A DNA stretch of 58,154 nt from a bacterium (lineage in GTDB: Bacteria > Bacillota > Clostridia > Lachnospirales > Lachnospiraceae), in assembly GCA_023666335.1 (NCBI GenBank), contig JAMPCE010000014.1:1-58154 (forward strand), read 5' to 3'. Below the pieces are notes generated by a model. The model saw only the letters and a list, made by a program, of their open reading frames with translations. It was not told where the DNA came from and did no database searches. Shown piece after piece: positions 14,593 to 32,128 of the stretch. A program made the position numbers and the translations under genes. The stretch's first letter is position 1. Every line of letters starts with the position of its first letter.

Positions 14593-14727
14593 GAACACAG
14601 GAAAGTAATATCTCAAGGAGCCCCTCAAAATTCGCCGGCGCTTGATGAGGTATTTCACGAATCTAGCGTCCGCTGCGTATTTTGCGGAGCGAAAGCGCGG
14701 CGACGCAGATATTGCTTCCCCGTGTTC
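14593..14727 (+). repeat. Family A structured element, copy 1 (behind thiI)
   Basis: Outer arms of 21 bases (14593-14613 and 14707-14727) pair throughout, allowing G-U. The 93-base core differs from copy 4 (27064-27156) at only about three positions. In this orientation the core contains the inner stem GGCGCT/AGCGTC, the conserved loop TGATGAGGTATTTCACGAA and the GNRA hairpin GCG-AAA-GCGC. It lies 18 bases from the thiI stop codon. Confidence 0.85.
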
Positions 14728-14745
14728 TTTCACAGCCTAAATTCC

Positions 14746-15927
14746 TCACGCCTGCACCACGATCGTTTCTTTTGTTTCCAGCGCTTTCTCCACCAGCCCG
14801 TCGATCTCCTCCCGCAGGTTCTGCTCGTGCCGCTTAATGACATTCAGGCTCGGTTTCGTGACGGGATGCTTTGCCACAAAAATGGTACAGCAGTCCTCGT
14901 AGGGCAGGATGGACGTCTCGTAGCTGTCGATCTTCTCCGCGATCTCCACGATCTCCATCTTGTCAAATCCGATGAGCGGCCGATAAACGGGCATGGTGCA
15001 CACCTCGTCAGTCGCTGCCAGACTCGCCATCGTCTGGGACGCTACCTGTCCGATGCTCTCACCCGTCACCAGCCCCAGACACTCCGTCTCTTTCGCGATC
15101 TGTTCCGCAATGCGCATCATGTAGCGGCGCATGATGATGGTCAGCTCGTCGTGCGGGCACTTGTCGTAGATGTAAAGCTGGATGTCCGTAAAATTCACCA
15201 CATGAAGCCAGACCGGTCCCGCGTATGCCGCCACTTTCTTCGCCAGATCGACCACTTTCTGTTTCGCCCGCTCGCTGGTGTAAGGCGGCGCATGAAAGTA
15301 TACCGCGTCGATCTTTACGCCGCGCTTGGCGATCATCCATCCCGCCACGGGAGAATCGATGCCGCCCGACAACAGCAGCATCGCCTTGCCGCCCGTCCCG
15401 ACCGGCATACCGCCCGGACCGGGTATGATCTCGGAATAGAGGTAGATCTTGTCCCGCACTTCCACATGCAAAAGGATGTCCGGCTGATGCACGTCCACAC
15501 GCATTTCCGGGTAAGCGTCAAGGATCACGCCGCCCAGTTCCACGTTCATTTCCATTGAATCAAGCGGATAATTTTTGCGCGCCCGCCTTGCCGCCACCTT
15601 GAATGTCCGGTTCCTGTCCTGGTACACGTCGCCGATGTAGCGCACCACATCTTCGCAGAGCTTTTCAAAGCCCTCGTCCTCCACATGCACCACGGGGCAG
15701 ATGCCGGAGATGCCGAAAACTTTTTTCAGATTTTCGACTGTCTCCTCATAATCAAATTCCGAGAGCGCGTCCACATAAATGCGCCCGTCCGTCCTGCGCA
15801 CCGCGAACTCCCCCTCCGCTTTTTTCAGGGCGTATTTGATCTGTTTGACCAGCGCCTCCTCGAAGAGGTAGCGGTTCTTGCCCTTGACGCCGATCTCTGC
15901 ATACTTGATCAAGAATGATTTATACAT
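14746..15927 (-). CDS. thiI: tRNA 4-thiouridine synthetase ThiI (no rhodanese domain)
   Basis: This 393-residue enzyme uses ATP to activate U8 of tRNA for sulfur insertion and can also serve thiazole synthesis. A THUMP region occupies about 60-165, and the PP-loop motif LLLSGGIDSPVAGW is near 182-195. The C-terminal rhodanese domain of E. coli ThiI is absent, as in most Firmicutes, so sulfur must come straight from the dedicated cysteine desulfurase encoded just upstream. ATG 15927 has GAAAGGAAG upstream. The 33-codon open extension before it is family A repeat DNA, not protein. Confidence 0.95.
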   Translation of the reverse strand: MYKSFLIKYAEIGVKGKNRYLFEEALVKQIKYALKKAEGEFAVRRTDGRIYVDALSEFDYEETVENLKKVFGISGICPVVHVEDEGFEKLCEDVVRYIGDVYQDRNRTFKVAARRARKNYPLDSMEMNVELGGVILDAYPEMRVDVHQPDILLHVEVRDKIYLYSEIIPGPGGMPVGTGGKAMLLLSGGIDSPVAGWMIAKRGVKIDAVYFHAPPYTSERAKQKVVDLAKKVAAYAGPVWLHVVNFTDIQLYIYDKCPHDELTIIMRRYMMRIAEQIAKETECLGLVTGESIGQVASQTMASLAATDEVCTMPVYRPLIGFDKMEIVEIAEKIDSYETSILPYEDCCTIFVAKHPVTKPSLNVIKRHEQNLREEIDGLVEKALETKETIVVQA

Positions 15928-15941
15928 TTGCTTCCTTTCTA

Positions 15942-16091
15942 ATTGTACGAATAGTATAATCAACGCAGACTCGCTTGCGCTCCATTCCGAACGTAATGGT
16001 ACTAAGCTCGTGGAGTTGCGTAGCAACTCCGAACCTCGCTAAGTACCAACGTTCTCCAAGGGTCTGCTTATGATTATACTATTCGTACAAT
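15942..16091 (-). repeat. Family A structured element, copy 2 (between nifS-like gene and thiI)
   Basis: Perfect 21-base outer arms occupy 15942-15962 and 16071-16091. Read on the minus strand, the inner stem is GAACGT-TGGTACT with AGTACCA-TT-ACGTTC. In place of the usual ATTTC tip it has an extra hairpin, GGAGTTGC-TAC-GCAACTCC. The terminal hairpin is GCG-CAAG-CG, a GCAA tetraloop. Ten bases separate it from the stop codon of the desulfurase gene. Confidence 0.85.
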
Positions 16092-16101
16092 AATTAACTT
16101 G

Positions 16102-17256
16102 TCAATACCTTGTATATTTGCGCAGCTGCGGCACGATTTCCTCCAAAGTCCGACAGGTGTAGGCGATCTCCTCCTGCGTGGTGAATTCGGAAAGGCTGAA
16201 ACGGATCGTGGAATGCAGAAGCTCCTTTTCCACGCCGATCGCCTTTAAGGTCGCCGACGGCTGCGGTTTGTGAGCCGCGCAGGCGCTTCCCGCGGAAACA
16301 TAGATCCCCCGCTCCTCCAAGGCATGCAGGAGCACTTCGCTGCGGACGCCCCTGAAAGATGCGCTCACGATATGCGCCGCGCCCTCCCTGCCCGGGCAGC
16401 CGTTGATCACCACGTCGGGTATTTTTTTGACTGTATTGGTCAATTCTTCCCGCAGGGCATACATTCTGTCTACGTTCTGTTCGAGATTTTCATATCCCAG
16501 CTTTGCTGCTTCGGCAAAGGCAGCGATCCCGGGCAGATTTTCCGTGCCCGACCGCAGACCGCGCTGCTGCCCTCCGCCGTACATGACGGGGCTTACTTTC
16601 GCGCCCTCCCGCAGATACAGAAGACCCACGCCTTTTGGTCCGTGGATCTTGTGCGCGCTCGCGGAAAGCATATCGACGTTCATCTTTTTCGGGGTAAGGC
16701 GCACCTTGCCGAATCCCTGCACCGCGTCCACATGAAAGAGCGTCTGCGGGTTTTTGCGCTTGATGAGCGCGCCTGCTTCCGCAATGGGCTGTATGCTGCC
16801 GATCTCGTTGTTGGTGTGCATGATAGAGACCAGAATGGTATCCTGCCTGACGGCGTCCGCCAGTTCATCGAGAGAGATTCGACCAGTTCGGTCAACAGAA
16901 AGACGCGTCACCTCGAATCCCTGATCTTCCAGATACGCCATAGGCTGCAAGACCGCCGGATGCTCGATCCCTGTCGTGATCACATGCCTGCCGCTCCTGT
17001 GGTTTGCCATCGCCGCGCCGACGATCGCTATGTTGTCGGACTCCGTTCCGCAGGAGGTGAAGTAGATCTCTTTCTCCTGCGCTTTCAACAGTTTGGCGAA
17101 GACTTCCGTGGCATGGCGCAGATAACCCTCCGCCTCCACGCCTTTGTGATGCAGGCTGGACGGATTTCCGTACGCTTCCCGCATGATCTTATGAGCCAGA
17201 GACGCGGCCTCCTCCAGACAAACGGTGGTCGCGGAATTGTCCAAATATACTTCCAT
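16102..17256 (-). CDS. Cysteine desulfurase (NifS/IscS family), partner of ThiI
   Basis: This 384-residue PLP enzyme releases sulfur from cysteine as a persulfide. The start MEVYLDNSATT is typical, the PLP lysine lies in SASAHKIHGPKG (about 200-211), and the catalytic cysteine lies in SAGSACAAHKP (about 325). The short active-site loop and adjacency to thiI match the Bacillus nifZ-thiI pair, which supplies sulfur for tRNA 4-thiouridine. Only a family A element separates it from thiI. ATG 17256 has AGGAA sequences upstream. Confidence 0.92.
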   Translation of the reverse strand: MEVYLDNSATTVCLEEAASLAHKIMREAYGNPSSLHHKGVEAEGYLRHATEVFAKLLKAQEKEIYFTSCGTESDNIAIVGAAMANHRSGRHVITTGIEHPAVLQPMAYLEDQGFEVTRLSVDRTGRISLDELADAVRQDTILVSIMHTNNEIGSIQPIAEAGALIKRKNPQTLFHVDAVQGFGKVRLTPKKMNVDMLSASAHKIHGPKGVGLLYLREGAKVSPVMYGGGQQRGLRSGTENLPGIAAFAEAAKLGYENLEQNVDRMYALREELTNTVKKIPDVVINGCPGREGAAHIVSASFRGVRSEVLLHALEERGIYVSAGSACAAHKPQPSATLKAIGVEKELLHSTIRFSLSEFTTQEEIAYTCRTLEEIVPQLRKYTRY

Positions 17257-17312
17257 TCCTGTCAGTTCCTTTCACATATCATGTCTGCAAAACACTTCAA
17301 AATGTTGTCATA

Positions 17313-17460
17313 ATTGTGCAAATAGCATAACCAACGCAGACTCGCTTTCGCTCCATTCTGGGCGCAACGCCGAGCCTGCGAAGCAGTGCTCGAGTGGTTA
17401 ATTCCGCAGGAATTTACCACATTTTCAAGGGTCTGCTTATGGTTATCCGATTTGCACAAT
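17313..17460 (-). repeat. Family A structured element, copy 3 (behind rsmE), variant core
   Basis: The outer arms (ATTGTGCAAAT and ATAACCA blocks, then GCAGAC/GTCTGC) and the GNRA hairpin GAGCGAAAGCG match the other copies. The middle is replaced by three separate hairpins: GGTAAATTCC-TGC-GGAATTAACC, GAGC..TGC-TTC-GCA.GCTC and GGCG-TTG-CGCC. It lies 55 bases from the rsmE stop codon. Confidence 0.75.
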
Positions 17461-17515
17461 AATCCCCGCGTTGTAACATGTTTCGCAATCGTCTAACCTA
17501 GTTTAAATATATGAA

Positions 17516-18256
17516 TCACCCCTCGAAATGGTACATCAGCCAAGCAAGAACGACAAGCCCCGCCGTCTCGGTGCGCAGGATACGCCGCCCCAAAGTGACA
17601 GGCAGGACGCCCGCAGACAGCGCCATTTCCACTTCGTTCTCTTCAAAACCGCCCTCCGGTCCGATAAAGACTGCCACACTCTTTCCCGGTTCGATCCCGT
17701 CTATGAGTTCTTTCGTGCGCGCCATCCCGTCCGCCAGCTCATAGGGAAGGAGCCGCACGTCCGCCTTTTCCGCATAGGACAGCGCCTCCTTCATCGTCAT
17801 GGGCATTTTCACCGCAGGAATGACGCCCCGCCTGCACTGTTTGGCTGCCGCCTCCGCAATGCCCTGCCATCTGCCGCACTTTGCCGCCGCTTTCTTTTCG
17901 TCCAGCTTCACCACGCAGCGCTTCGCCGCCACCGGAATGATCTCGTACACGCCAAGTTCCACGGCTTTCTGCACGATCAGTTCCATCTTGTCCGCCTTGG
18001 GAAGACACTGAAAGAGATAGACCTTTGAGGGGAGTTCCACGCCCTCCTCTCTGATGAAGCGCAGGGAGCAGATCACCCGATCCTGCAAAAATTCCTCGAT
18101 CCCGCAGCGGTACTCCCTGTCGTCCGCGCTGCACCTGACCGCGATCTCCTCGCCAATCTTCATGCGCAGGACATTTTTGATATGGTTGACGTCGCTCCCT
18201 GTGATCGTGACTTTTTTATCCTGTATCTGCGACGGTTCCACAAAAAATTGATACAT
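17516..18256 (-). CDS. rsmE: 16S rRNA m3U1498 methyltransferase RsmE
   Basis: This 246-residue SPOUT-class methyltransferase modifies U1498 of 16S rRNA. The C-terminal knot signature FIGPEGGFEENEVEMA (about 203-218) followed by LGRRILRTETA is diagnostic. The N-terminal PUA-like part starts MYQFFVEPSQIQ. Its ATG follows the vanZ stop directly (TAAATG), with GGAGGG inside the vanZ end, so the two are translationally coupled. In many Firmicutes rsmE follows prmA; here vanZ lies between them. Confidence 0.95.
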   Translation of the reverse strand: MYQFFVEPSQIQDKKVTITGSDVNHIKNVLRMKIGEEIAVRCSADDREYRCGIEEFLQDRVICSLRFIREEGVELPSKVYLFQCLPKADKMELIVQKAVELGVYEIIPVAAKRCVVKLDEKKAAAKCGRWQGIAEAAAKQCRRGVIPAVKMPMTMKEALSYAEKADVRLLPYELADGMARTKELIDGIEPGKSVAVFIGPEGGFEENEVEMALSAGVLPVTLGRRILRTETAGLVVLAWLMYHFEG

Positions 18257-18940
18257 TTAGCTGCCCTCCGGCGCGTCCGTTTCCCCGCTCTGCTGCACAG
18301 GCTCTTTCGACTTTTGCTCCGCTTCATCCTGCTGCCCTGACTTTTCCTGCTCCCGCTCCTGTCTTGCTTTCTCCCGCTCTTCCTGACGCTTTCGCTGTTT
18401 CTCCTGCTGCCGCGCCAGCTTCTCCTGCTTCTTCGCTTTCCTTGCTTTCACGACGCCCACGATCTTCACGACGAGCGCAAACACGACCACGCCCAGGACC
18501 GCGCCCGCGCTGTCAATCAGCACATCCGTAAACCGCCCTGCACGACCTGCCACAAACAACTGATGGATCTCGTCGGTGGCGGCATAGACGGCAGCTGCCC
18601 CGGCGGCTGTTGCGCCCTTTCGCAAAAAACCCATCTCCCATTGCCCGATCCAGATATAAAGGAGCACCGAAAGAAGCCCAAACTCCGCCATATGCGCCAC
18701 CTTGCGCACAAAGCCCTCGATCGCGTCCGCGATCTCTTTCACCCGCGCATCGGACAGGTCCAGATGAAAAAAGAAATTGGTCGAACTTACCATCTGGTAA
18801 GTAAAGCCCGCGCTCATCTCGCCGGACTCCTCTTTCGGCTGCGCGGAAAAGGCAAAGATGATACACATCCACACGATCGCCAGCACGCCCGCCAGATTCC
18901 GCAATAAAATCATTTTGAATTTCTTTTTTGTTTCCGCCAT
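18257..18940 (-). CDS. VanZ-family membrane protein with long charged tail
   Basis: This 227-residue protein begins with a membrane segment (about 12-31). A VanZ-like core of three further segments follows, with the typical FSAQPKEES, KVAHMAEFGLL and ATDEIHQLFVAGRAGRFTDVL blocks. The last 65 residues are an unusual stretch rich in Lys, Arg, Glu and Gln (EKQRKRQEEREKARQ), probably a cytoplasmic helix or a disordered tail. VanZ relatives are linked to teicoplanin resistance, but most have no known role. It sits between prmA (7-base gap) and rsmE (no gap), so it is part of this operon. Confidence 0.8.
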   Translation of the reverse strand: MAETKKKFKMILLRNLAGVLAIVWMCIIFAFSAQPKEESGEMSAGFTYQMVSSTNFFFHLDLSDARVKEIADAIEGFVRKVAHMAEFGLLSVLLYIWIGQWEMGFLRKGATAAGAAAVYAATDEIHQLFVAGRAGRFTDVLIDSAGAVLGVVVFALVVKIVGVVKARKAKKQEKLARQQEKQRKRQEEREKARQEREQEKSGQQDEAEQKSKEPVQQSGETDAPEGS

Positions 18941-18947
18941 GATAACC

Positions 18948-19934
18948 TCACAATTTTTGCGCCGTCACGCTTCTCCACTCGCCCTGCGCAGTCACCTCTA
19001 AAACGGTCAGCCCTGCCGCCCCGCAGGCTGTCGTCACCAATTCTTCTTTTCCCTCGATAATACCCGAAGTGATGTAGACGCCGCCCTTTTTCAGGCAGGA
19101 CGCGATGATCGGCGTGAGCGGCACGAGCACATCCGCCAGGATATTGGCTGTCACGATATCGTATTTTTCATAACCGACCCTGTCCTGCACATCTTTTTCG
19201 GTGATGATGTTGCCGATCAGCAGGTCAAAAGCATCCTCCGGAATGCCGTTTGCCTCTTTGTTCTGCGCCACGGCGTCCGCCGCACAGGGATCGAGATCCG
19301 TGCCGAGCGCGTGCCCCGCGCCGTACATCAACGCCAGAATGGCAAGAATACCGCTGCCCGTCCCCACATCCAGAATCTCCGCCTGCGGCGTCAGGTACTT
19401 CCAAATCTGCCGGATGCAGAGCTGCGTCGTCTCGTGCATCCCCGTCCCGAACGCCGTGCCCGGGTCGATGTGCAGGATCTTTTTCTTTCGGTCTTCCTCC
19501 TTTACCTCTTCCCAGGAGGGGATCACCAGCAGGTCGTCGATCGTAAATTGATGAAAATACTGTTTCCAGTTATTGATCCAGTCAATATCTTCCGTCTCGG
19601 TGACAGTGACTGTTCCCTCGCCGATCTCCATGAACTGCCGCACTTCTGTGAGCGCTTCCTCGATCGAGTCAAGCACACTCTGCCGATCCGTCTCTTCTCC
19701 ATTTATGACAAGCATGTCATTTTCCTGCTCTTCCACAAAGAAGCTGAGATATGCCGTGCCGTCATCTTCCTCGCTCTCGGGCGGGATATCGACGAACATC
19801 TGCTCCTTTTCCAGCGCGGTCAGGGGCACTTTATCCTCGATCTGCGCCCCCTCAAGCCCTCTGTCGTAAAGTTCGCTGATGATGATGTCCTCCGCGTCCA
19901 CGACAGTCCTGATCCTGAATTTCATCCACTTCAT
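18948..19934 (-). CDS. prmA: Ribosomal protein L11 methyltransferase PrmA
   Basis: This 328-residue SAM-dependent methyltransferase trimethylates lysines and the N-terminus of ribosomal protein L11. The SAM motif ILDVGTGSGILAILALMYGA lies near 185, followed by GTDLDPCA, and the family motif NILADVLVPL is near 270. HIDPGTAFGTGMHETT is also typical. The N-terminal substrate-binding domain is present and slightly long (acidic insert near 50-60). ATG 19934 has AAGGAAG upstream, and the gene follows telA with an 8-base gap. Confidence 0.94.
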   Translation of the reverse strand: MKWMKFRIRTVVDAEDIIISELYDRGLEGAQIEDKVPLTALEKEQMFVDIPPESEEDDGTAYLSFFVEEQENDMLVINGEETDRQSVLDSIEEALTEVRQFMEIGEGTVTVTETEDIDWINNWKQYFHQFTIDDLLVIPSWEEVKEEDRKKKILHIDPGTAFGTGMHETTQLCIRQIWKYLTPQAEILDVGTGSGILAILALMYGAGHALGTDLDPCAADAVAQNKEANGIPEDAFDLLIGNIITEKDVQDRVGYEKYDIVTANILADVLVPLTPIIASCLKKGGVYITSGIIEGKEELVTTACGAAGLTVLEVTAQGEWRSVTAQKL

Positions 19935-19942
19935 GACGCGGT

Positions 19943-21097
19943 CTACTTCCTTTCACTCAGCTCTAAGAGCTTCTGCTTGAGGTCGTTTTCCATCACCCGC
20001 ATCTCTTCCTCCGCCACGCGCCGCTTCTCCCTGCCGTCCGCCTGGATCTTCATCACTTCATCCAGCGTCGCAATCAGATTGGCGTTCGTATTCTTAAGCG
20101 TCTCCATATCGACAATTCCGCGCTCAGATTCCTTTGCGCTCTCGATCGCAGATACTTTTAATACCTCCGCGTTTTTCTTTAACAGCTCATTCGTCATATC
20201 GGAGACTTCCCGCTGCGCTCTCGCCGCCTGCTCCGCGTGTGTCACGCCCAGCGCCAGCACCATCTGGCTCTTCCAGAGAGGAATGGTATTGACGATCGTG
20301 GACTGGATCTTCTCCACCATCATGGTATCACTGTTCTGAACCAATCGAATCTGGGGCGCAGTTTGGATAGACACTACTCTGGTCAATTCCAGATCATACA
20401 ACTTTTTTTCAAAACGATCACATAGGGTTTCCATGTCCCTCGCCGCCTGCGCGTCTTCCGGCAGACCGCTCGCCTTTGCCTTTTCCAGAAGTTCGGGCAG
20501 TTCCGTCTCTCTGGTCTCCTGAAGCTTCTTCTTTCCCGCCAGTATGTACATGGAAAGTTCCTTGAAATAGACCAAATTCAAATCATACATCTTATCCAGA
20601 ATATCAATATCCTTAAGGAGCTTTACCTGATTGCTTTCTAACGCCTCGCAAATCTTGTTGATGTTTGTCTCCACTTTAGAATATTTTGCTTTCATGGATT
20701 GCAGTTTATGTGCCGGTTTCTTAAGAATACCGAAAAGCCCTTTTTCTTCCTCATCAAAATCCTTAAGCTGTGTCACTACATCGGAAAGCATATCACCAAC
20801 TTCCCCTAAATCTTTCGCTCTCACATTTCCCAAGGCATTACTGGAAAAATCTGCTATTTTTTTCTGAGTTCCTACACCATACTGCAAGATTGCGGTAGTA
20901 TTATGCAAATCGATCTGTTTTGCAAATGCATCAATCTTCTGTCTCTCTTCATCAGTCAAAACAGAATCGTCCAGCTCCTGCCCCTCCGTCTTCGTCTGCG
21001 GAATCTCCGCAAGGGGCGCCTGCTCTTTCACCATGCTCTCTACCTCCCCGAACACCAAAGTCGGGGTCTCCATTTCCTTTAAATCTACTTCGCTCAT
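19943..21097 (-). CDS. TelA/YaaN family protein
   Basis: This 384-residue, strongly helical, cytoplasmic protein belongs to the toxic-anion-resistance family TelA (KlaA, YaaN). The long central region has coiled-coil character, and the family segment SIQTAPQIRLVQNSD..VEKIQSTIVNTIPLWKSQ (in part) is clear. Family members are connected with tellurite resistance, envelope stress and antibiotic tolerance, but the mechanism is unknown. The xpaC-type gene directly upstream repeats the xpaC-yaaN pairing of Bacillus. ATG 21097 has AGGAG upstream. Confidence 0.88.
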   Translation of the reverse strand: MSEVDLKEMETPTLVFGEVESMVKEQAPLAEIPQTKTEGQELDDSVLTDEERQKIDAFAKQIDLHNTTAILQYGVGTQKKIADFSSNALGNVRAKDLGEVGDMLSDVVTQLKDFDEEEKGLFGILKKPAHKLQSMKAKYSKVETNINKICEALESNQVKLLKDIDILDKMYDLNLVYFKELSMYILAGKKKLQETRETELPELLEKAKASGLPEDAQAARDMETLCDRFEKKLYDLELTRVVSIQTAPQIRLVQNSDTMMVEKIQSTIVNTIPLWKSQMVLALGVTHAEQAARAQREVSDMTNELLKKNAEVLKVSAIESAKESERGIVDMETLKNTNANLIATLDEVMKIQADGREKRRVAEEEMRVMENDLKQKLLELSERK

Positions 21098-21136
21098 TCC
21101 GGTTATCTCCTTTCTGTATTCGGTCTGCCTGAACTG

Positions 21137-22417
21137 TTAATTTAAGTATCCGTCCTGCTTTAATATCGTATGTAACGCCGAAATATCCGACTGGATATCC
21201 CACGCTTTCTCCCGAAAAAGTTCATCCAAAAACTTTTCAAAGGCTTCGTTGATGTTGTCCACCGCCGTCTCGATCTCCCGCTTCGTCTGCTCGATATTGG
21301 ACAGATCGAGCTTTTGTCCGTCCAGATCGCGGTACGCCTCCAAAAGTTTCTTTGTGGTCGGCAGATAAAAGCTTAACATCTTCCGCAGTTCGGGCGCAAG
21401 TTCCGGTTCTTTCTCCACCTGCTCAAAGATCCTCGTCACCAGCAGTTCCAGACGGTCCAGCTTATCCGACATCTCCTCGCCGGGGATCTCGTCGTTGCAC
21501 TGGCGGATGAGTCGAACGTATGTTTTCCCTTCCTCGATTACCTCCGCCGCCTCGCCCAGACGCTCCTTTTCCTGCTGTTTCCGCTCGTCGGCAAGCTTTT
21601 CGATCTCCAGCTTTTTCTGCTCCTCCTCATAATTCTTCTGCGTGAGCATATACTGGTCATACATCTCGTTGCTGGCGATCAGGCAGGTCTCCTGTTGATC
21701 CAAACGTCCCTGCGCAAACATTCCCAGCCGGAGCATCTTTTTGATATCTCTCAGGACAAAACGCTCGCTTTTCCCTATTTGCAGCGCCATCTCCTGAATC
21801 GAACAGTAAAGTTTGTCTTTCAGCATATTCACATAGCGTTTGTAACGCCCTGCGCGGCCCGTCAGTCTGGTGCCGTGGATGCCGACGCCCAGCCCTCCTG
21901 CAAACAGGATCAATGCCGTGACAAGAGATGACGCGTTCCCGACATAGACTGCCATTTCCGCAAGCGAAACCGGTATCGCAAGCGCCGAGACTGCCGCCGT
22001 GGTATAACCCGCGCACATACATACAACGCCCGATATGGTTCCTTTCGGCGTGCGCTGAAACAGTCTGGAATCCGGGCGGGTATTCGGATGCCTGTACTGC
22101 GGCAGATGCGCATACGGACTCTGCGGCTGCAAAGACGCTCTGACGCCACGTCCCATATTTCCGGCGGTGCGTTCAATACCGCTTCCCACATTGTTGACGA
22201 CGCGGTTCACGCCCTGCCCCACCGCCTCCACGGTGCGGTTCACATTGTCCCCCACAGTCCCCACCGTGCGGTTCACTTCCCGCATCGTGCGGTTGATGGT
22301 CTCGTTTACCGTATTGCTGATATTTTTGCCAAGATTCGTAAAGTTACCCGTCTCTACCGCCTGCTGTACCTGATCCCGGATATCTTCTCCTGCCCGATAC
22401 CACTCATTCCTGTCCAT
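21137..22417 (-). CDS. XpaC-like protein with N-terminal VNRTV repeats
   Basis: This 426-residue protein contains the 5-bromo-4-chloroindolyl phosphate hydrolysis (XpaC) family region from about 165 on, next to two predicted membrane segments (about 130-182). The N-terminal 90 residues hold an unusual run of about five 11-residue units (VNRTVGTVGDN, VNRTVEAVGQG, VNRVVNNVGSG), which suggests an amphipathic helix. A charged helix (EEEQKKLEIEKLADER) follows. The start at 22417 overlaps the DUF3048 gene by 14 bases, and the GGAG that would serve it is only one base away, so the start is the least certain point. Confidence 0.75.
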   Translation of the reverse strand: MDRNEWYRAGEDIRDQVQQAVETGNFTNLGKNISNTVNETINRTMREVNRTVGTVGDNVNRTVEAVGQGVNRVVNNVGSGIERTAGNMGRGVRASLQPQSPYAHLPQYRHPNTRPDSRLFQRTPKGTISGVVCMCAGYTTAAVSALAIPVSLAEMAVYVGNASSLVTALILFAGGLGVGIHGTRLTGRAGRYKRYVNMLKDKLYCSIQEMALQIGKSERFVLRDIKKMLRLGMFAQGRLDQQETCLIASNEMYDQYMLTQKNYEEEQKKLEIEKLADERKQQEKERLGEAAEVIEEGKTYVRLIRQCNDEIPGEEMSDKLDRLELLVTRIFEQVEKEPELAPELRKMLSFYLPTTKKLLEAYRDLDGQKLDLSNIEQTKREIETAVDNINEAFEKFLDELFREKAWDIQSDISALHTILKQDGYLN

Positions 22418-23600: not shown

Positions 23601-23691
23601 TTCTACCTCTCTTCCACGATTCACGTTCTTTTGTCTGTTAAATCATCCGCACTGATACACACAGATTAGTATGCGGCGCATAGATGTTTTT

Positions 23692-23720
23692 ATTATAACC
23701 GAAAACTGGAAAGCTGTACA
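23692..23720 (-). promoter_or_regulatory. Promoter of the DUF3048-to-rsmE gene run
   Basis: TGTACA (23715-23720) and a perfect TATAAT (23692-23697) on the minus strand are 17 bases apart, starting right behind the U-run of the dnaJ terminator. Confidence 0.6.
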
Positions 23721-23721
23721 G

Positions 23722-23760
23722 AAAAAAACTCCCCTTTCCGGATTTTACTCCGAAAAGGGG
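23722..23760 (-). terminator. Terminator of the heat-shock operon
   Basis: On the minus strand CCCCTTTTCGGA and TCCGGAAAGGGG form a stem at 23731-23760, followed by a run of seven T residues. It lies 14 bases after the dnaJ stop. Confidence 0.9.
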
Positions 23761-23774
23761 CTTCTGCCTGTCTC

Positions 23775-24953
23775 TTATAATTTGAATTTTCTCTTCTTTT
23801 TTCCGCCGCCGTTCGTCTCGTCGCTCTGGTCGGAGGTTATGTTCTTTGCCGCATTCAGGCTGTCGCCCGTACTCTCGTCAAACTGTTTCAAAAGTTCTTT
23901 CGCCTCGTGGGAAAGTTTGTCGGGCACCTGCACCACCAGCGTGACATAATGATCGCCGCGCACATCCTTGCTCCGAAGAGACGGTACGCCCTTGCCTTTC
24001 AGGCGGACTTTGGTGTCGGTCTGGGTGCCTGCCTTTACCTCGTAGATCACTCTGCCGTCCACCGTGTCGATCACGATATCGCCGCCCAGCGCCGCAACCG
24101 CAAAGGACATCGGGACTGTGGAATAGATATTCTCGTCCTGCCTCTGGAAGATCGGATGTCTTCCGACCACCACTTCCACCAGCAGATCCCCTCTGGGACC
24201 GCCGTTCGATCCCGGCTCGCCCTTATCGCGGATGCGGACGCACTGGCCGTTGTCGATCCCCGCGGGGATGGAAACCTGGATCTTCTTTTTATTCGCGATG
24301 TAACCCGTGCCGCGGCAGTCAGGGCACTTATCCTTGATGATCTTGCCCGTTCCGTGGCAGTCGGGACAGGTCTGCACATTCCGCACCGTGCCAAAGAAAG
24401 ACTGCGACGTAAACACGACCTGACCTTTGCCGCCGCACTTCGGACAAGTCTCGGGACTGGTGCCGGGCTTTGCGCCGGTGCCGTGGCAGGCGGTGCACTC
24501 GTCCTTAAGCGTCAGCTCAATCTCTTTCTCCACGCCGAAGACCGCTTCCTCGAAAGTGATGCGGACGCTGGTTCTGATATTCGCGCCTTTCATGGGACCG
24601 CTGCTGCGCCCGCCGCCGCGTCTGCCGCTTCCAAAAAGATCCCCGAAGATATCGCCAAAGATATCACCGAAATCCGCGCTGTTGAAATCGAAGCCGCCGA
24701 AACCGCCTGCGCCGCCCGCACCGTCGAAGGCAGCATGACCATACTGGTCATACTGTCTCCTCTTCTCGGGGTCGCTAAGGACTGCATACGCCTCCGAGGC
24801 TTCCTTAAATTTTTTCTCCGCCTCCGCGTCCCCGGGATTCATGTCGGGGTGGTATTTCTTAGCCAGAACGCGATATGCTTTTTTGATGGCGGCGTCGTCA
24901 GCGCTCTTCTCTACGCCGAGCACCTCATAGTAATCCCGTTTTTGTTCTGCCAT
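23775..24953 (-). CDS. dnaJ: Chaperone DnaJ
   Basis: This 392-residue class I Hsp40 stimulates the DnaK ATPase and delivers substrates. The J-domain has HPD at 35-37. A Gly/Phe-rich linker ([20 protein letters not shown]) follows, then four zinc repeats of type CxxCxGxG ([32 protein letters not shown]), then the C-terminal peptide-binding region. It is the last gene of hrcA-grpE-dnaK-dnaJ. A structured spacer of 94 bases separates it from dnaK. The palindrome at 24735-24751 lies in the codons for YDQYGH, a conserved protein motif. Confidence 0.98.
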
Positions 24954-24977
24954 GATTCATCCTTCCCTGGATTTCCA

Positions 24978-25047
24978 CCATCTCAGCCGCAGCCGTCAAA
25001 TTCGTGCAAGCTCGATTTGCCCGCTGTCTTCGATTCGGCTGAGCTGG
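24978..25047. repeat. Structured palindromic element between dnaK and dnaJ
   Basis: CCA-T-CTCAGCCG (24978-24989) pairs with CGGCTGAG-C-TGG (25036-25047). Nested inside are CAGC/GCTG and CAAAT/ATTTG. The right arm directly abuts the dnaK stop codon (25048-25050). Confidence 0.65.
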
Positions 25048-26991
<1,944 letters not shown>

Positions 26992-27041
26992 CTACCGCGG
27001 CGTTTTCTCTCTCATATTTCTGCTGCCGTTTCATTCTGTAA

Positions 27042-27178
27042 GGGCTGTGCAGAAACCATTTCTTAAGGAGCCCCTCAAAATGCGCCGGCGCTTGATGAGG
27101 TATTTCACGAATCTAGCGTCCGCTGCGTATTTTGCGGAGCGAAAGCGCGGCGACGTAGAAATGATTTCTGCGCAGCCC
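27042..27178 (+). repeat. Family A structured element, copy 4 (between grpE and dnaK)
   Basis: Outer arms of 22 bases (27042-27063 and 27157-27178) pair fully with G-U allowed; their sequence is unrelated to that of copy 1 although the cores are nearly identical. The right arm ends 4 bases from the grpE stop codon. The inner stem is AAAATGCG..GGCGCT with AGCGTC..CGTATTTT. Confidence 0.88.
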
Positions 27179-27182
27179 GCAT

Positions 27183-27782
27183 TCACTGAACTACTGCTAC
27201 CATACTATGCCGTACAACGCTCTCGCGGTAGGTATACCCTTTTTGCAACTCCTGCGCCACGACCCCGCTCTCAAATTCTTCGCTCTCCACCTGCATCACC
27301 GCATTGTGGAAATCGGGGTTAAATTCCTCGCCCACCGCCGGGATCGGTTTGACCTCCAGATTCTCAAGCTCTGTCATCAACTGCTTGTAGATCATCTGCA
27401 TTCCCTGCGCGACCGCGCCGTCCTGCTCTCCCTCGGGAATGCTCGCAAGCCCTCTCTCAAAATTGTCCACGACGGGAAGAATCTTTTCGATCACGCTCTT
27501 TGCTCCGGTCTCAAACATAGCCGTCTTTTCTTTCTCCGTCCGCTTGCGGAAATTCTCAAACTCCGCCATCTGCCGCTTTACGCGGTCTTCCAGCTCCTCG
27601 ATCTTTTCCTTGAGGGCATCCTGCTTTTTGTCTTTCTTTTTCTTCTCTTTCTTTTCTGCCTTATCGTCCGGCGGCGTCTGCTCCGTTGGCGCATCGGCGC
27701 CCTGTTCCTGTGCCGCCTCCTCCGCTGCCGCGGCTTCCTTTTCTTCCTCCGCCTCGTTTGTCCTGTCCTTTTCTTCCGCCAT
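27183..27782 (-). CDS. grpE: Nucleotide exchange factor GrpE
   Basis: This 199-residue protein swaps ADP for ATP on DnaK. The acidic, Ala/Glu/Lys-rich N-terminus (about 1-60) is followed by the long coiled coil (EKIEELEDRVKRQMAEFENFRKR, in part) and the beta-domain with GEEFNPDFHNAV and GYTYRESVVRHSMVAV at the end. The ATG at 27782 has GGGAG 9 bases upstream; an in-frame ATG three codons earlier would sit directly on the ribosome site, so I reject it. It follows hrcA by 64 bases. Confidence 0.96.
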   Translation of the reverse strand: MAEEKDRTNEAEEEKEAAAAEEAAQEQGADAPTEQTPPDDKAEKKEKKKKDKKQDALKEKIEELEDRVKRQMAEFENFRKRTEKEKTAMFETGAKSVIEKILPVVDNFERGLASIPEGEQDGAVAQGMQMIYKQLMTELENLEVKPIPAVGEEFNPDFHNAVMQVESEEFESGVVAQELQKGYTYRESVVRHSMVAVVQ

Positions 27783-27805
27783 GATATTCATCTCCCATCT
27801 ATCTG

Positions 27806-27822
27806 TTGACTGATTCAGTCAT
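27806..27822. repeat. Dispersed 17-bp palindrome, copy between hrcA and grpE
   Basis: TTGACTGATTCAGTCAT lacks perfect symmetry only at its end base. It lies in the 64-base gap before grpE and belongs to the palindrome set described for 7801. Confidence 0.6.
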
Positions 27823-27846
27823 TTTTTACCCTTTTACGGTACTGCC

Positions 27847-28872
27847 TCAGCGCTTATAAAGATCGTCCAGTTGATTCTTCAAAAGCCTTAAGCTGCTCAC
27901 GACCTTTTCATAATCCATCCGCTTGGGTCCGATGATGCCGATCGTTCCTTTCATGCCCTCATCCAGCTCGTAAGTGGCTGTCACGATGCTGCAGTCTTTC
28001 ATGCCGGCAACGGGCGTCTCGCTCCCGATGTAGACCTGAATGCCGGTATTGTTATCGCCCGAAAGGTTATCCTGCACAAGCTCGGTCAAAAGCTGTTTTT
28101 CTTCGAATGTCGTGATCAGTTCGCTCGCCCGCTCGTGATCCGCCAGCTCCGGATACTTGAAAAAGTTCTTCGTACCGCTGGTGTAAATCTCCAGATCCTC
28201 GTCCGCCTTGATGGCTTCCGCCACCGCGTCGATGACGCCCGCCACGATCTCGCTGTGGATCCCCGCCTGCTGCTTTAACGCCGCGATCATCCCGAGATTG
28301 ATCTCCTCCATCGAAAGCCCGTTCAAGTGGGTATTCAGAAGAATGTTCAGCTTGAGAAGCGTCTCGTCGTCAAGCTCTTCCTCCACATTCAGCATCGAGT
28401 TCTTGATCACGTTTCCCTCTACCACGATGACCGCCAGGAGGTGCTGCGCATCCACTCTGGAAAGCTGAATGAATTTCAGCTTATTCTGATGGTACTGCGG
28501 CGCGGAGACCATCGCCGCATACTCCGTGTTGTTGGCTAAGAGTCTGGCTGCCTGTTTCAGAAGATGATCGACCTTATCTTCCTTTTCCAGAAGAAGTTCT
28601 TTCTTCTCCTCCACCTCGCGCTCTTTTTCTTCCATCAGCTTATCGACGTAGAGACGGTATCCCTTATCGGAAGGAATCCTGCCTGCGGAGGTATGGGGCT
28701 GCAAAATATATCCCAGCTCCTCCAGGTCCGCCATCTCGTTGCGGATGGTCGCCGAACTCAAATTCAGATCGGTGTATTTGGAGATGGTACGGCTGCCGAC
28801 CGGTTCGCCTGTCTCCAGATAATTCCGGATGATGGCCTGCAATATGATATATTTTCTTTCGTCCAACTGCAT
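27847..28872 (-). CDS. hrcA: Heat-inducible transcription repressor HrcA
   Basis: This 341-residue repressor of class I heat-shock genes binds the CIRCE operator and needs the GroE chaperonin to stay active. The N-terminal winged helix carries MQLDERKYIILQAIIRNYLE, GEPVGSRTISKYTDLNLSSA and ADLEELGYILQPHTSAGRIP. The C-terminal region ends GIIGPKRMDYEKVVSSLRLL. I chose ATG 28872, with GAGGG upstream, because the longer frame runs through the CIRCE site and promoter. First gene of its operon, and so self-regulated. Confidence 0.97.
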   Translation of the reverse strand: MQLDERKYIILQAIIRNYLETGEPVGSRTISKYTDLNLSSATIRNEMADLEELGYILQPHTSAGRIPSDKGYRLYVDKLMEEKEREVEEKKELLLEKEDKVDHLLKQAARLLANNTEYAAMVSAPQYHQNKLKFIQLSRVDAQHLLAVIVVEGNVIKNSMLNVEEELDDETLLKLNILLNTHLNGLSMEEINLGMIAALKQQAGIHSEIVAGVIDAVAEAIKADEDLEIYTSGTKNFFKYPELADHERASELITTFEEKQLLTELVQDNLSGDNNTGIQVYIGSETPVAGMKDCSIVTATYELDEGMKGTIGIIGPKRMDYEKVVSSLRLLKNQLDDLYKR

Positions 28873-28895
28873 CCCGTTTCCCTCTGCCCGAATTG

Positions 28896-28922
28896 TTAGC
28901 ACTCGATTCGTTAGAGTGCTAA
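28896..28922. promoter_or_regulatory. CIRCE operator (HrcA binding site)
   Basis: TTAGCACTC, nine bases, then GAGTGCTAA: a perfect match to the CIRCE consensus. It lies between the promoter at 28937-28965 and the hrcA start 23 bases further on, so HrcA bound here would block the whole operon. Confidence 0.98.
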
Positions 28923-28936
28923 CACCTTCTGTTAGT

Positions 28937-28965
28937 AAGGTATCACTTTGCCATTTTATTGTCAA
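28937..28965 (-). promoter_or_regulatory. Promoter of hrcA-grpE-dnaK-dnaJ
   Basis: A perfect TTGACA (28960-28965), a 17-base spacer and TACCTT (28937-28942) on the minus strand. Confidence 0.8.
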
Positions 28966-28978
28966 CACTTAATTTATA

Positions 28979-29030
28979 AAAAAAGTGTAAAACAAAGACA
29001 GTCAATCCAGTATACCCTGAATTGACTGTC
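28979..29030 (-). terminator. Terminator of the DUF6465 gene
   Basis: GACAGTCAAT (28997-29006) and ATTGACTGTC (29021-29030) form a 10-pair stem extended by CAG/CTG. On the minus strand a U-rich stretch (TTTGTTTTACACTTTTTTT) follows. Confidence 0.8.
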
Positions 29031-29055
29031 CGCATTCGCTGTTATTTCTGTTTGA

Positions 29056-29562
29056 TCAGATGCCGAAGTTTCCTGCCACGTCGCCGTTGATCACATAGTA
29101 AACTACGCTCTCCTCGGGCTTCACATAAAGCTCTACGCTCTTGAAATCGCCGACCTTTCTCTTGAGGTCGTATTTCCAGACATCCTTTGCGATCTTTACC
29201 AGATCCTCCGTCGTATAGGACTTGCCCGCGAACTCTACATGCAGGTTCTCCTTGACAGCCGTCTTTCTGGTGGTCGTCTTTGCTCCGGTTTCCTTCTTCG
29301 CTGCCGCAGGCTTTCTGCCGGGCTTCTTTGCGGTCGTCTTCTTTGCCGCCGTAGTCTTGTTCTTGGAACCGGGCTTTCTGCCGGGTTTCTTTTTCTCTAC
29401 GGGAGCTTTCGTCTCCGCCGCCTTTGCCGGCTCAGCCTTGGTCTCAACCTTTGCTGCTGCCACAGGCTCGGTCTTTGCTGCAGGCGCTGCCACGGGTGTC
29501 GTCACAGTAGATGTCTTGGTCTCTGCCGCTTTGTTGATTTCAGGTTTCTTGATCTCTGCCAT
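29056..29562 (-). CDS. DUF6465 family protein with AT-hook-like basic tail
   Basis: This 168-residue protein has a long Ala/Lys/Thr-rich N-terminal half of low complexity with two AT-hook-like motifs (KKPGRKPGSKNK and KKPGRKPAAAKK). A folded C-terminal domain of about 65 residues begins NLHVEFAGKSYTTEDLVK, which I assign to DUF6465, a family known mainly from Lachnospiraceae. The basic tail resembles histone H1 and suggests DNA or RNA binding; the C-terminal domain has no known role. ATG 29562 has AAGGAG. It is a single-gene unit with a near-consensus promoter and terminator, so expression is probably high. Confidence 0.75.
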   Translation of the reverse strand: MAEIKKPEINKAAETKTSTVTTPVAAPAAKTEPVAAAKVETKAEPAKAAETKAPVEKKKPGRKPGSKNKTTAAKKTTAKKPGRKPAAAKKETGAKTTTRKTAVKENLHVEFAGKSYTTEDLVKIAKDVWKYDLKRKVGDFKSVELYVKPEESVVYYVINGDVAGNFGI

Positions 29563-29648
29563 GAGTAATCTCCTTCCCCACTTTCAAAAATATTCTTTCC
29601 TATATTTTCGCCGCGCACATTCGCGCACTGCATGACTTCATTAGTGGT

Positions 29649-29677
29649 ATCATAGCTCATTCTGACGAGACTGTCAA
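29649..29677 (-). promoter_or_regulatory. Promoter of the DUF6465 gene
   Basis: TTGACA (29672-29677), a 17-base spacer and TATGAT (29649-29654) on the minus strand; the leader is about 80 bases. Confidence 0.85.
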
Positions 29678-29767
29678 CTAACAATCTGTAGGAAATAGTG
29701 AATTTTTATTGTAAAATATTATACGAAATGCTATAAAAACAGCCTGAAAATGTCTTTTTTTTAAAAA

Positions 29768-30592
29768 TTACGCCAAAGAAAACCACGCGAGCACCGCAAT
29801 TCCGAGTATGATCCGGTACCATCCGAACACCTTGAAATCATGTTTTTTGATGTATCCCATCAGGAATCGGATCACCAAAACCGATACGACAAACGCAACG
29901 ATCATGCCCGCCGCCAGAATCGCGATCTCCTCCCCTGTAAAGACGAATCCGAACTTCAAAAGCTTTAAAAGGCTTGCCCCCAGCATCACGGGAATCGCCA
30001 AAAAGAAAGTAAATTCCGCCGCCACGGTCCGCGATACGCCGATCAACAGCGCGCCCACAATGGTCGCACCGGAGCGGGAAGTCCCCGGGAAAATGGCTGC
30101 GATCAACTGAAAGACGCCGATCAAAAGCGCCGTCGTGTAGGTGATATCGGAAAGTTCCGTGATCTTCGGCGTCATATCCCGATTGCGGTTTTCGATCACG
30201 ATAAAGGCGATACCGAACACGATCAGCGCCACCGCCACGCACCACGGATTGTAAAAAAGCGCATCGAACACGTCGTCAAAAGCAAGCCCGATTACCGCTG
30301 CCGGAATACAGGCAGCCAGAATCTTGAACCAGAGCGTAAAAATATCTTTCTGCACCACCGGCTTCTCCCGAAAACGGAAGGGAAAAATCTTGTTCCAGAA
30401 CAAAAGCACCACCGCCAGGATCGCGCCGAGCTGGATCACCACCAGAAACATCTCCCAGAACGCCTCGCTCACGTTCAGCGTCACAAATTCATTGAGCAGG
30501 ATCATGTGCCCGGTGCTGCTGATGGGCAGCCATTCCGTGATGCCCTCCACGATGCCGAACAATACCGCCTTTAATAATTCTATGATATCCAT
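29768..30592 (-). CDS. uppP: Undecaprenyl-diphosphatase UppP (BacA)
   Basis: This 274-residue integral membrane enzyme recycles undecaprenyl pyrophosphate to the monophosphate carrier for peptidoglycan synthesis and gives bacitracin tolerance. The two signature blocks are GIVEGITEWLPISSTGHMI (about 13-31, with the catalytic glutamates) and FPGTSRSGATI (about 167-177). Eight or so membrane helices are visible. It ends the run aminotransferase-uppP, with a family A element between. No strong terminator is seen behind it. Confidence 0.96.
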   Translation of the reverse strand: MDIIELLKAVLFGIVEGITEWLPISSTGHMILLNEFVTLNVSEAFWEMFLVVIQLGAILAVVLLFWNKIFPFRFREKPVVQKDIFTLWFKILAACIPAAVIGLAFDDVFDALFYNPWCVAVALIVFGIAFIVIENRNRDMTPKITELSDITYTTALLIGVFQLIAAIFPGTSRSGATIVGALLIGVSRTVAAEFTFFLAIPVMLGASLLKLLKFGFVFTGEEIAILAAGMIVAFVVSVLVIRFLMGYIKKHDFKVFGWYRIILGIAVLAWFSLA

Positions 30593-30630
30593 ACTGTTTC
30601 CTTTCTGCGAAACTCATTCATATGTATTGA

Positions 30631-30764
30631 TATTGTGCAAATACTATAATCAACGCAGACGCGCTTGCGCTCCATTCCAAGCGTAACAGTGCTAAATTCG
30701 TGAAAGACCTCATTAAGCACTGACGCTTTCCAAGGGTCTGCTTATGATTACAGTATTGCACAAT
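30631..30764 (-). repeat. Family A structured element, copy 5 (between aminotransferase and uppP)
   Basis: The outer arms begin TATTGTGCAA (30631) and end TTGCACAATA (30764), continuing through a TAATCA block and GCAGAC/GTCTGC. Read on the minus strand, the inner stem is GCGT-CAGTGCT with AGCACTG-TT-ACGC, the loop AATGAGGTCTTTCACGAAT, and the terminal hairpin GCG-CAAG-CGC. It starts 2 bases after the aminotransferase stop codon. Confidence 0.88.
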
Positions 30765-30766
30765 AA

Positions 30767-31948
30767 TTATAACCCTGAGACGAGTTTCGCAAACGCCGCA
30801 AGCGACCGCTCCACCTTCTCCGTGTCGATACAGTAAGCCAGACGGAAATATCCTTTTACGCCAAAGCTGTCGGAAGGCACCGCGATGATATCGTATTTTT
30901 TCGCTGTCTCGGAAAATGCCACGGCATCCCCGCCCGGCGCTTTCGGGAACATATAAAAGGTGCCGCCCGGCTCCACGCACTCGAATCCGAGAGAAGTAAG
31001 CTCTTTATATAATATGTTCTTATTTTTCTCATAGACCGAAAGATCCGCCGTCAGGTCAAGAACTTCCGCCACCGCGAGCTGAATGATGGACGGCGGGCAG
31101 TTATGCCCCGTCCCGCGCGAAATCTGGCTGCACATCACGCTGATCAGCTCCGCGTCCGTGCACTTCGGGTTTACCGCCACATACCCAATCCGCTCTCCCG
31201 GCAGGGAAAGGGATTTCGAGAAAGAATAGCAGGAAAGGGTATTATCGTAAAATGTAGAAGGATAAGGCGCATCCACGCCCGCAAACACGATCTCCCTGTA
31301 AGGCTCGTCGGAAATCAGGAAGATATCATGCCCGTACGCTTTCTGTTTTTCTTCCATGAGCTTCGCCATTTTTTGAATGGTCTCCGTGGAATAGACGATG
31401 CCCGAGGGATTGTTCGGCGTATTGATCAAAACCGCCATCACCTTGTCCGTGAGCATTTCCTCAAACGCCTCGAAATTGATCTGGAAACTCTCCGTGTCCG
31501 CAGGCACCACTTTGAGGACAGCCCCCGTCAGATTCACATAAGGACCGTACTCCGGAAAATACGGCGCAAACGTGAGCACTTCATCGCCCGGCTCCGTCAC
31601 GGCACGCAATGCGTGGGCGATCGCGCCCGCCGCTCCCGTCGTCATAAAGATATGATTTCCCGTGTAGTTCATCCCGAACCGCCTGTTGAGGGAAGCCGCC
31701 ACCTTGTCCCTGACGGCGGGAATACCCAGACTCTGGCTGTAGCCGTGCAGCTCCATCGAATCCATTTCCTGTAACATCCGTATCATCGTGTCCGTAAATT
31801 TCTGCGGCACCGGCACAGACGGATTTCCGAGACTGTAATCAAATACATTCTCGTAACCGATCTCTTTTCCCCGCGCCGTCGCAAACTCCGAGAGCTGCCG
31901 AATCACAGATTTTCCCTGTAACATATCTTTATATTTCTGTACGATCAT
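30767..31948 (-). CDS. PLP aminotransferase, class I/II
   Basis: This 393-residue fold-type I aminotransferase has the PLP lysine in CYSFSKSLSLPGERIGY (about 233-249), the phosphate-site segment MTTGAAGAIAHALRA and NTPNNPSGIVY with the conserved Asn and Asp region. The C-terminal substrate arginine lies in GYFRLAYCID. Close relatives are annotated as aspartate/alanine-type aminotransferases in Clostridia; the exact substrate cannot be read from the sequence. Family A copies flank both sides of the gene. Confidence 0.88.
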   Translation of the reverse strand: MIVQKYKDMLQGKSVIRQLSEFATARGKEIGYENVFDYSLGNPSVPVPQKFTDTMIRMLQEMDSMELHGYSQSLGIPAVRDKVAASLNRRFGMNYTGNHIFMTTGAAGAIAHALRAVTEPGDEVLTFAPYFPEYGPYVNLTGAVLKVVPADTESFQINFEAFEEMLTDKVMAVLINTPNNPSGIVYSTETIQKMAKLMEEKQKAYGHDIFLISDEPYREIVFAGVDAPYPSTFYDNTLSCYSFSKSLSLPGERIGYVAVNPKCTDAELISVMCSQISRGTGHNCPPSIIQLAVAEVLDLTADLSVYEKNKNILYKELTSLGFECVEPGGTFYMFPKAPGGDAVAFSETAKKYDIIAVPSDSFGVKGYFRLAYCIDTEKVERSLAAFAKLVSGL

Positions 31949-31997
31949 TTTTCCCTCTCCATTTCTCCTCTATATTTCTGTTTATGTCGATATCGAG

Positions 31998-32128
31998 CGG
32001 TACAGAGCACATGATTATAAGCAGACCCTCACAGGACGTCGGTACTTGATGAGGTTTTTCACGAATCTAGTACCGTTACGTCCGAAATGGAGCGCAAGCG
32101 CGTCTGCGTTAATCATGCGCTTGTATCG
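31998..32128 (+). repeat. Family A structured element, copy 6 (behind the alpha-galactosidase gene)
   Basis: The outer arms (31998-32026 and 32102-32128) pair with small bulges through GTACA..AGC.CATGATTA and GCAGAC/GTCTGC. The inner stem GGACGT-CGGTACT pairs with AGTACCG-TT-ACGTCC around TGATGAGGTTTTTCACGAATC, and the tip is GCG-CAAG-CGC. It lies 10 bases from the aga stop codon. Confidence 0.85.

Follow-up and report, generated by a model that had tools for sequence, protein, structure and literature searches.

The window analysed here, i.e., the whole 58,154-nt stretch of contig JAMPCE010000014.1 from a bacterium of the family Lachnospiraceae (assembly GCA_023666335.1), raises the question of what the six structured repeats between positions 14593 and 32128 are and how they came to lie where they do. 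We propose that they are short palindromic elements with a shared core that probably behave as non-autonomous transposons, similar to miniature inverted-repeat transposable elements (MITEs), and that would be moved in trans, with a DDE transposase recognising their inverted ends as the predicted mover. Mobility was among the roles suggested in a preliminary description of these repeats, there in the form of repetitive extragenic palindromes (REPs). Inverted ends and 11-bp target duplications agree with mobility, but the proposed search for a REP-associated tyrosine transposase (RAYT) gave no PF01797 match in the source genome (G000) despite at least 86 copies, and the repeats are therefore MITE-like palindromes rather than REP/RAYT elements.

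On the sense strand, all six copies consist of outer arms, a base helix (GCAGAC/GTCTGC or, in the type A form, GGAGCC/GGCGAC with a tandem G.A step), a long hairpin, which is missing from copy 3, and a short GC-GNRA-GC hairpin. The paired arms, the base helix or its variant and the GNRA hairpin had been recognised in all six stretches from the outset and are confirmed here, as are the even split of orientations (sense strand plus in copies 1, 4 and 6, minus in copies 2, 3 and 5) and, with the coordinates then given, the distance of 2-55 nt between every copy and the stop codon of a minus-strand open reading frame (ORF). An inner stem with its loop had been ascribed to five copies; we find it in four (copies 1, 4, 5, and 6, with the loop GATGAGGTNTTTCACGAATC or a close form), as copy 2 has a hairpin instead of the loop and copy 3 forms two other hairpins where the inner stem would be. 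Allowing up to three mismatches, GATGAGGTNTTTCACGAATC matches the window four times, compared to a mean of 0.02 in 100 shuffles. Both strands fold according to RNA energies, with the sense strand being more stable in five of the six copies.

The copies were scored with R1, a covariance model built on the 13 copies of alignment A3 (11 from the source genome and two from a record named uncultured Clostridia, with copy 3 omitted). Copy 1 (14593..14727, plus strand) has a type A core with private outer arms and reaches 108.7 bits; copy 4 (27042..27178, plus strand) is likewise type A (112.2 bits). Copy 2 (15942..16091, minus strand; type B, arms 20/20 paired, 99.6 bits) and copy 6 (31998..32128, plus strand; type B core, 119.3 bits) have no recognisable inverted ends. 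Their coordinates stand as first given, whereas copies 3 and 5 are longer, with TGCGAAAC-type inverted ends lying outside the original boundaries. Including these ends, copy 3 extends over 17286..17487 (minus strand, 45.5 bits; arms plus core 17313-17460; TGCAAAACAC at 17286-17295 and ATGTTTCGCA at 17478-17487) and copy 5 over 30606..30791 (minus strand, 118.2 bits; TGCGAAACTC at 30606-30615 and GAGTTTCGCA at 30782-30791).

The proposal that one covarying structure is common to the repeats was borne out by three alignments, with counts uncorrected for relatedness. In A3, 95.1% of 429 cells were paired and double changes occurred at 23 of 33 pairs; the 81 double-change cells compare with a mean of 27.6 in 500 shuffles and with 5-14 when pairing partners were slid, the latter contrast being biased in favour of the structure, which was derived by folding one of the A3 copies. 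Further pair types were no more frequent than in the shuffles (32 vs. 31.9). An alignment of 34 copies, 33 of which derive from 28 other genera, had 96.2% of 1120 cells paired and 30 of 33 pairs doubly changed, although it was fitted to R1 and leans towards this model. RNAalifold, applied to 17 copies aligned without guidance, 15 of them from as many other genera, returned the same core fold, with 40 of 44 predicted pairs doubly changed. Two known motifs were considered and dropped, a hammerhead-like core (UGAUGAG...GAA) since the letters on either side of it form covarying GAT/ATC pairs, and a kink-turn because the 3-nt bulge is absent on reading the sequence.

The covariance-model search that had been suggested for these repeats recovered at least 86 strong copies in the source genome, a 3.1-Mb draft (R1, E ≤ 1.4e-6; a lower bound, as 150 of 1152 candidates were scored), and also copies in other genomes of the family. 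R1 matched 34 of 36 congeners (E ≤ 0.01) and none of 24 genomes of other families. Within the family, strict filters (E ≤ 0.001) left 69 of 150 genomes with copies, i.e., 68 of 149 genera, with the source genome included. Sixteen of 25 named stretches containing the exact loop bear Lachnospiraceae names or names of genera of this family. No named family had been recognised initially, and Rfam release 15 likewise gave no match to the whole window at gathering score; at E ≤ 2, the single weak match between 14500 and 32200 lies away from all copies, and 12 related loci matched rRNA and tRNA only. A single narrow query each of plasmids and viral contigs was without match. The repeats are best described as MITE-like palindromes that form a widespread family and whose branched core is preserved unusually well; we found no description of them in the literature searched by titles and abstract openings.

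Four hallmarks of MITEs are apparent. The first is terminal inverted repeats, as the element is the inner part of a larger unit with inverted ends TAGGYGWTTGCGAAAC in many copies of the source genome. By a simple base test, 65 of the 86 source-genome copies are type B and 21 are type A, an imperfect division in which at least L123 is a type B copy with a changed base. Both TGCGAAAC-type ends are present at 7/10 positions or better in 29 of the 65 type B copies, where an unpaired linker of about 17 nt separates the arms from the inverted ends TTAGGYGWTTGCGAAACKC; from one TGCGAAAC part to the other, these end-bearing elements span 186-219 bp. Second ends, TACTGTTCA, which differ from those of type B, were found with at most one mismatch beside the arms of 9 of 17 copies fetched from genome G027, mostly type A, and on both sides in four. 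A pattern search for an autonomous partner of these second ends gave candidate hits in 5 of 41 genomes, and no partner has emerged from it. Cores in other genera carry other arms, and L296 and L298 have TTGCGAAAC- or TGCGAAAC-type ends. The second hallmark is target-site duplication. Just outside the ends, at the same offset on both sides, 3 of the 29 end-bearing copies have exact 11-bp duplications (CTCAAAAGAGC in L040, TATACATCTAT in L065, and TGAACTCACTC in L098), as opposed to none among 812 control pairings in which the left flank of one copy was set against the right flank of another, the best of which agreed at 9/11 positions; there is none at the window copies.

The third hallmark, ends in common with an autonomous element, was found for the TAGGYGWTTGCGAAAC-type ends in relatives. 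Of 60 genomes of the genus, 41 matched the end pattern, with insertion sequences among the matches, and the ends flank insertion sequences of ~1.76 kb that encode a 490-aa transposase. L234 has its ends at a distance of 1.77 kb from each other, with the 490-aa ORF between them and a 12-bp duplication on their outer sides; L233, L235, L238, and L239 are built in the same way. The 490-aa protein has a DUF772 match, weak matches to DDE domains, and the string Y-x2-R-x3-E-x6-K as read from its sequence, and its best NCBIfam model is IS1182 (NF033551), at 77.8 and 77.1 bits and thus below the cut-off of 270. Among 61 genomes, five matched this protein, one of them with no more than a fragment. R1 had no match at the insertion-sequence sites (six sites, seven loci), and short end-bearing elements at seven loci contained an R1 match between the ends in three cases (L214, L230, and L232) and nearby but outside in L210. 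A 21-bp palindrome of the two ends alone (TAGGCGTTTGCGAAACGCCTA) at G062:C16:385-405 (L229), flanked, by eye, by a near-perfect 11-bp repeat, is possibly the smallest derivative of the element. A candidate active genome is that of the congener G023 (6.1 Mb), with at least 64 core copies, 16 Y1 transposase-family matches, and 6 matches to the DUF772 transposase.

The fourth hallmark is presence or absence at homologous sites. Both flanks were adjacent in relatives in 10, 12, 13, 30, 26, and 22 rows for copies 1 to 6, respectively (113 rows; G025 contributes two rows per site and G062 two at copy 4). An R1 element occupied the homologous site in three rows, one each for copy 2 (G003), copy 4 (G002), and copy 5 (G007); the one in G003 (L168) is a weaker family element of 29.5 bits. 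In the remaining rows of copy 4, the stretch between the flanks measures 12-173 bp. Inspection by eye showed a remnant at the copy 6 site in L164, and in L163 and L156 the place of copy 4 is taken by another palindromic repeat (CTTAGAACTTCT...AGAAGTTCT). Comparing the flanks of all source-genome copies with the loci of relatives yielded further sites filled in at least two species, seven of which were aligned. Compensated changes distinguish copy 4 from the G002 element at four inner-stem pairs and two arm pairs, and each species also has two mismatches in the arms. The idea that private arms originate from a palindrome in the target was unsupported, as homologous sites hold no such arms by eye, except in the filled rows and the L164 remnant.

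The 490-aa DUF772 transposase of relatives would be the mover of the elements, and the source-genome copies would now be stranded, because no such transposase gene was found there. Type A copies presumably moved likewise, with other ends. After insertion, the fold might be kept by selection, by hairpin-templated copying of one arm from the other during replication, or by both. Because the special letters, i.e., the GNRA loop, the tandem G.A pairs, and a T.T pair, are confined to one strand, a single strand, either RNA or DNA, is likely to provide the structure that counts. Across the 65 type B copies, the end score falls from 36 to 18 of 38 and non-Watson-Crick core pairs number 0 to 4; the two quantities correlate with rho = -0.22 (p = 0.085), with slightly more mismatches in copies without ends. 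Unexpectedly, arms matched at 19/20 or better were found in 11 of 30 copies with an end score of at most 23 compared to 1 of 26 with a score of at least 28 (Fisher p = 0.003, with 9 copies of intermediate score excluded), and arm matches also differed in a Mann-Whitney comparison (p = 0.028). Given these better-paired arms in end-less copies, the fold is likely maintained by selection or hairpin-templated repair. End-bearing copies tend to share the same two arm mismatches, and some copies with low end scores may represent another lineage that never had these ends.

Several observations weigh against a MITE-like origin. Type A copies, to which window copies 1 and 4 belong, are without clear ends in the source genome, and the search for an insertion sequence that could be the partner of type A ends was negative. 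Exact duplications are missing from 26 of the 29 end-bearing copies, including window copies 3 and 5. The 490-aa transposase is unmatched in the source genome, which leaves recent movement there unproven. About 0.9-1.06 kb of other DNA lies at the copy 5 site in 14 of 26 rows, and these are therefore not clean empty sites. The arm effect is small in the mean, at 17.5 of 20 matches with ends and 18.1 without. In addition, spread over nearly half of the sampled genera would also fit an old multicopy functional RNA.

Such a functional structured RNA, located in 3'-untranslated or intercistronic regions (e.g., a hairpin for stability or processing), multiplied by other means and with merely incidental ends, is a serious but not a probable alternative. 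It would be in accordance with the persistence of the fold after decay of the ends and with the loop, which is GNRA in 175 of 181 copies; the script favoured G..A loops, so that only the count of purines at the third base (175 of 176 G..A loops) is unbiased. G.T mismatches exceed A.C mismatches (91 vs. 50, or 91 vs. 26 without one special C.A site), but they occupy just 91 of 5857 cells (1.6%), which is low for an RNA helix, where a G.T share of about 10% is expected. The outer arms gave a count of opposite sign (G.T 97 vs. A.C 132); the former count is preferred because the outer-arm count includes the unpaired linker and family-wide fixed mismatches. Outer arms also exchange A-T for T-A, for which RNA offers no wobble route. 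Copies 2 and 4 sit between genes of likely operons, and transcription through the copies, including copy 4 (grpE/dnaK) and copy 2 (NifS-like gene/thiI), is therefore likely, as judged from gene arrangement. Orientation relative to genes is, however, unfixed: in tandem cases, the sense strand of the core was opposite to the flanking genes 48 times and the same 13 times in the source genome, 30 and 17 times in congeners, and 7 and 11 times in other genera, based on a simple ORF caller that with another ORF length gave 45 opposite and 15 same in the source genome. Together with the exchange of A-T for T-A and the scarcity of G.T cells, this variable orientation would speak for DNA or for templated repair. 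Of the 86 source-genome copies, 63 are richer in C on the sense strand, a bias that would fit hairpin loss on the lagging-strand template.

Alternatively, pairing could be kept by template-switch mutation alone, in which one arm is recopied from the other (a mechanism published for RNA stems, PMC8794818), with no function involved; this we consider unlikely. Recopying would explain that near-perfect arms are commoner in end-less copies and that, at a site filled in two species (L079 and L080), 6 of 26 arm positions differ, five of them being matched on both sides in both species (by eye). Yet among copies differing at one stem pair, single changes dominate over double changes in the source genome (153 vs. 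40), unlike in congeners (8 vs. 11; copy pairs are not independent), and arm recopying leaves the conserved unpaired letters (GNRA, T.T) unexplained. A composite scenario, in which one hairpin module, defined by fold rather than letters, has spread on at least two unrelated sets of transposon ends through nearly half of the family's genera, outlives mobility via arm recopying, and serves with its strand-specific fold as an operon RNA (e.g., in grpE-dnaK), appears more doubtful still.

We regard as improbable that an IS1272-like enzyme of the IS1182 family displaced older hairpins such as terminators. IS1182 is the best, albeit sub-threshold, NCBIfam model for the partner transposase, and terminator-like hairpins are visible by eye at the copy 2 site of several relatives. 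IS1272 is reported to replace inverted repeats, with new insertions that lack target duplications (PMC5678879), as opposed to the 11-12 bp duplications at three copies and one insertion sequence; a terminator-like hairpin adjoining copy 1 is, moreover, intact. Mobilisation as REP/RAYT- or IS200/IS605-type hairpins by a Y1 transposase is very improbable, since, although the elements are palindromic and intergenic, have special letters on one strand, form close inverted doublets by eye, and abound in G023 with its 16 PF01797 matches, PF01797 is unmatched in the source genome, G007, G017, G021, and G027 (at least 64 copies apiece), and Y1 enzymes are not expected to make target duplications such as the exact 11-bp ones.

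Within the window, copy 1 has thiI (stop at 14746) on one side and, on the other, a 99-aa plus-strand ORF that matched no family; copy 2 is flanked by a NifS-like gene and thiI, and copy 3 by this NifS-like gene and an RsmE-like one. Copy 4 has grpE (stop at 27183) and dnaK as neighbours. An aminotransferase-like gene (30767-31948) separates copies 5 and 6; copy 5, with uppP on its other side, encodes in its end the final 7 codons and the stop of this gene, and copy 6 has a gene with a weak glycosidase match on its other side. Close inverted doublets are frequent in the family: among the matches listed, all 17 inverted pairs less than 300 bp apart are arranged minus then plus with their 5' sides facing (by eye), and one same-strand pair was present (L276). 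The apical hairpin alone occurs just upstream of an apparent 16S rRNA start, on the opposite strand, in L001, L002, L008, L009, L011, L014, L017, L019, and L023, with the 16S match verified in L001 only and the other loci judged by letters; L006 and L015 share flanking letters. In L010 and L022, a two-hairpin apical motif (GAT-GAGGT...ACGA-ATC and AGC-GAGGT...CGA-GCT) adjoins tRNA genes on the same strand. These two motifs had no Rfam match of their own and possibly represent a separate structured RNA.

Compensatory change is the main evidence for calling an RNA functional. Here, such change affects the majority of stem pairs of a multicopy mobile element in which wobble pairs are few, a warning that RNA function is not proven by covariation alone where bacterial intergenic repeats are concerned. 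End-bearing and end-less copies side by side are natural replicates to separate selection from template-switch repair, which would make the family a good test case for the upkeep of such folds in bacteria. Its abundance, without a match in Rfam release 15, is also of note for annotation.

Like REP/RAYT elements (PMC3733652, PMC2817692), the repeats are palindromic, extragenic, and often arranged as inverted doublets, but they measure 135-220 bp instead of 20-40 and have inverted ends with target duplications, and the source genome has no RAYT gene. The partner transposase resembles IS1182- and IS4-type insertion sequences (PMC5678879, PMC2266710) by its DUF772 match and weak DDE match. It shares with IS4 members (PMC2266710) the Y(2)R(3)E(6)K string and 11-12 bp duplications and is unlike IS1182 in reaching 77.8 of 270 bits and in that IS1272 is reported without duplications (PMC5678879). 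The bcr1-bcr18 repeats of the Bacillus cereus group (PMC3446304) are also multicopy and intergenic, some being MITE-like and some having conserved folds; they belong to another bacterial group, and the likeness is one of description. The Correia/NEMIS, ERIC, and YPAL MITEs (PMC2229807) share a size of about 100-200 bp, intergenic location, inverted ends, transcripts predicted as long stem-loops, and a mover encoded by an outside gene. Unlike these, the family described here has a branched core with a GNRA hairpin, structure-conserved across dozens of genera, and the same core stands beside at least two kinds of ends.

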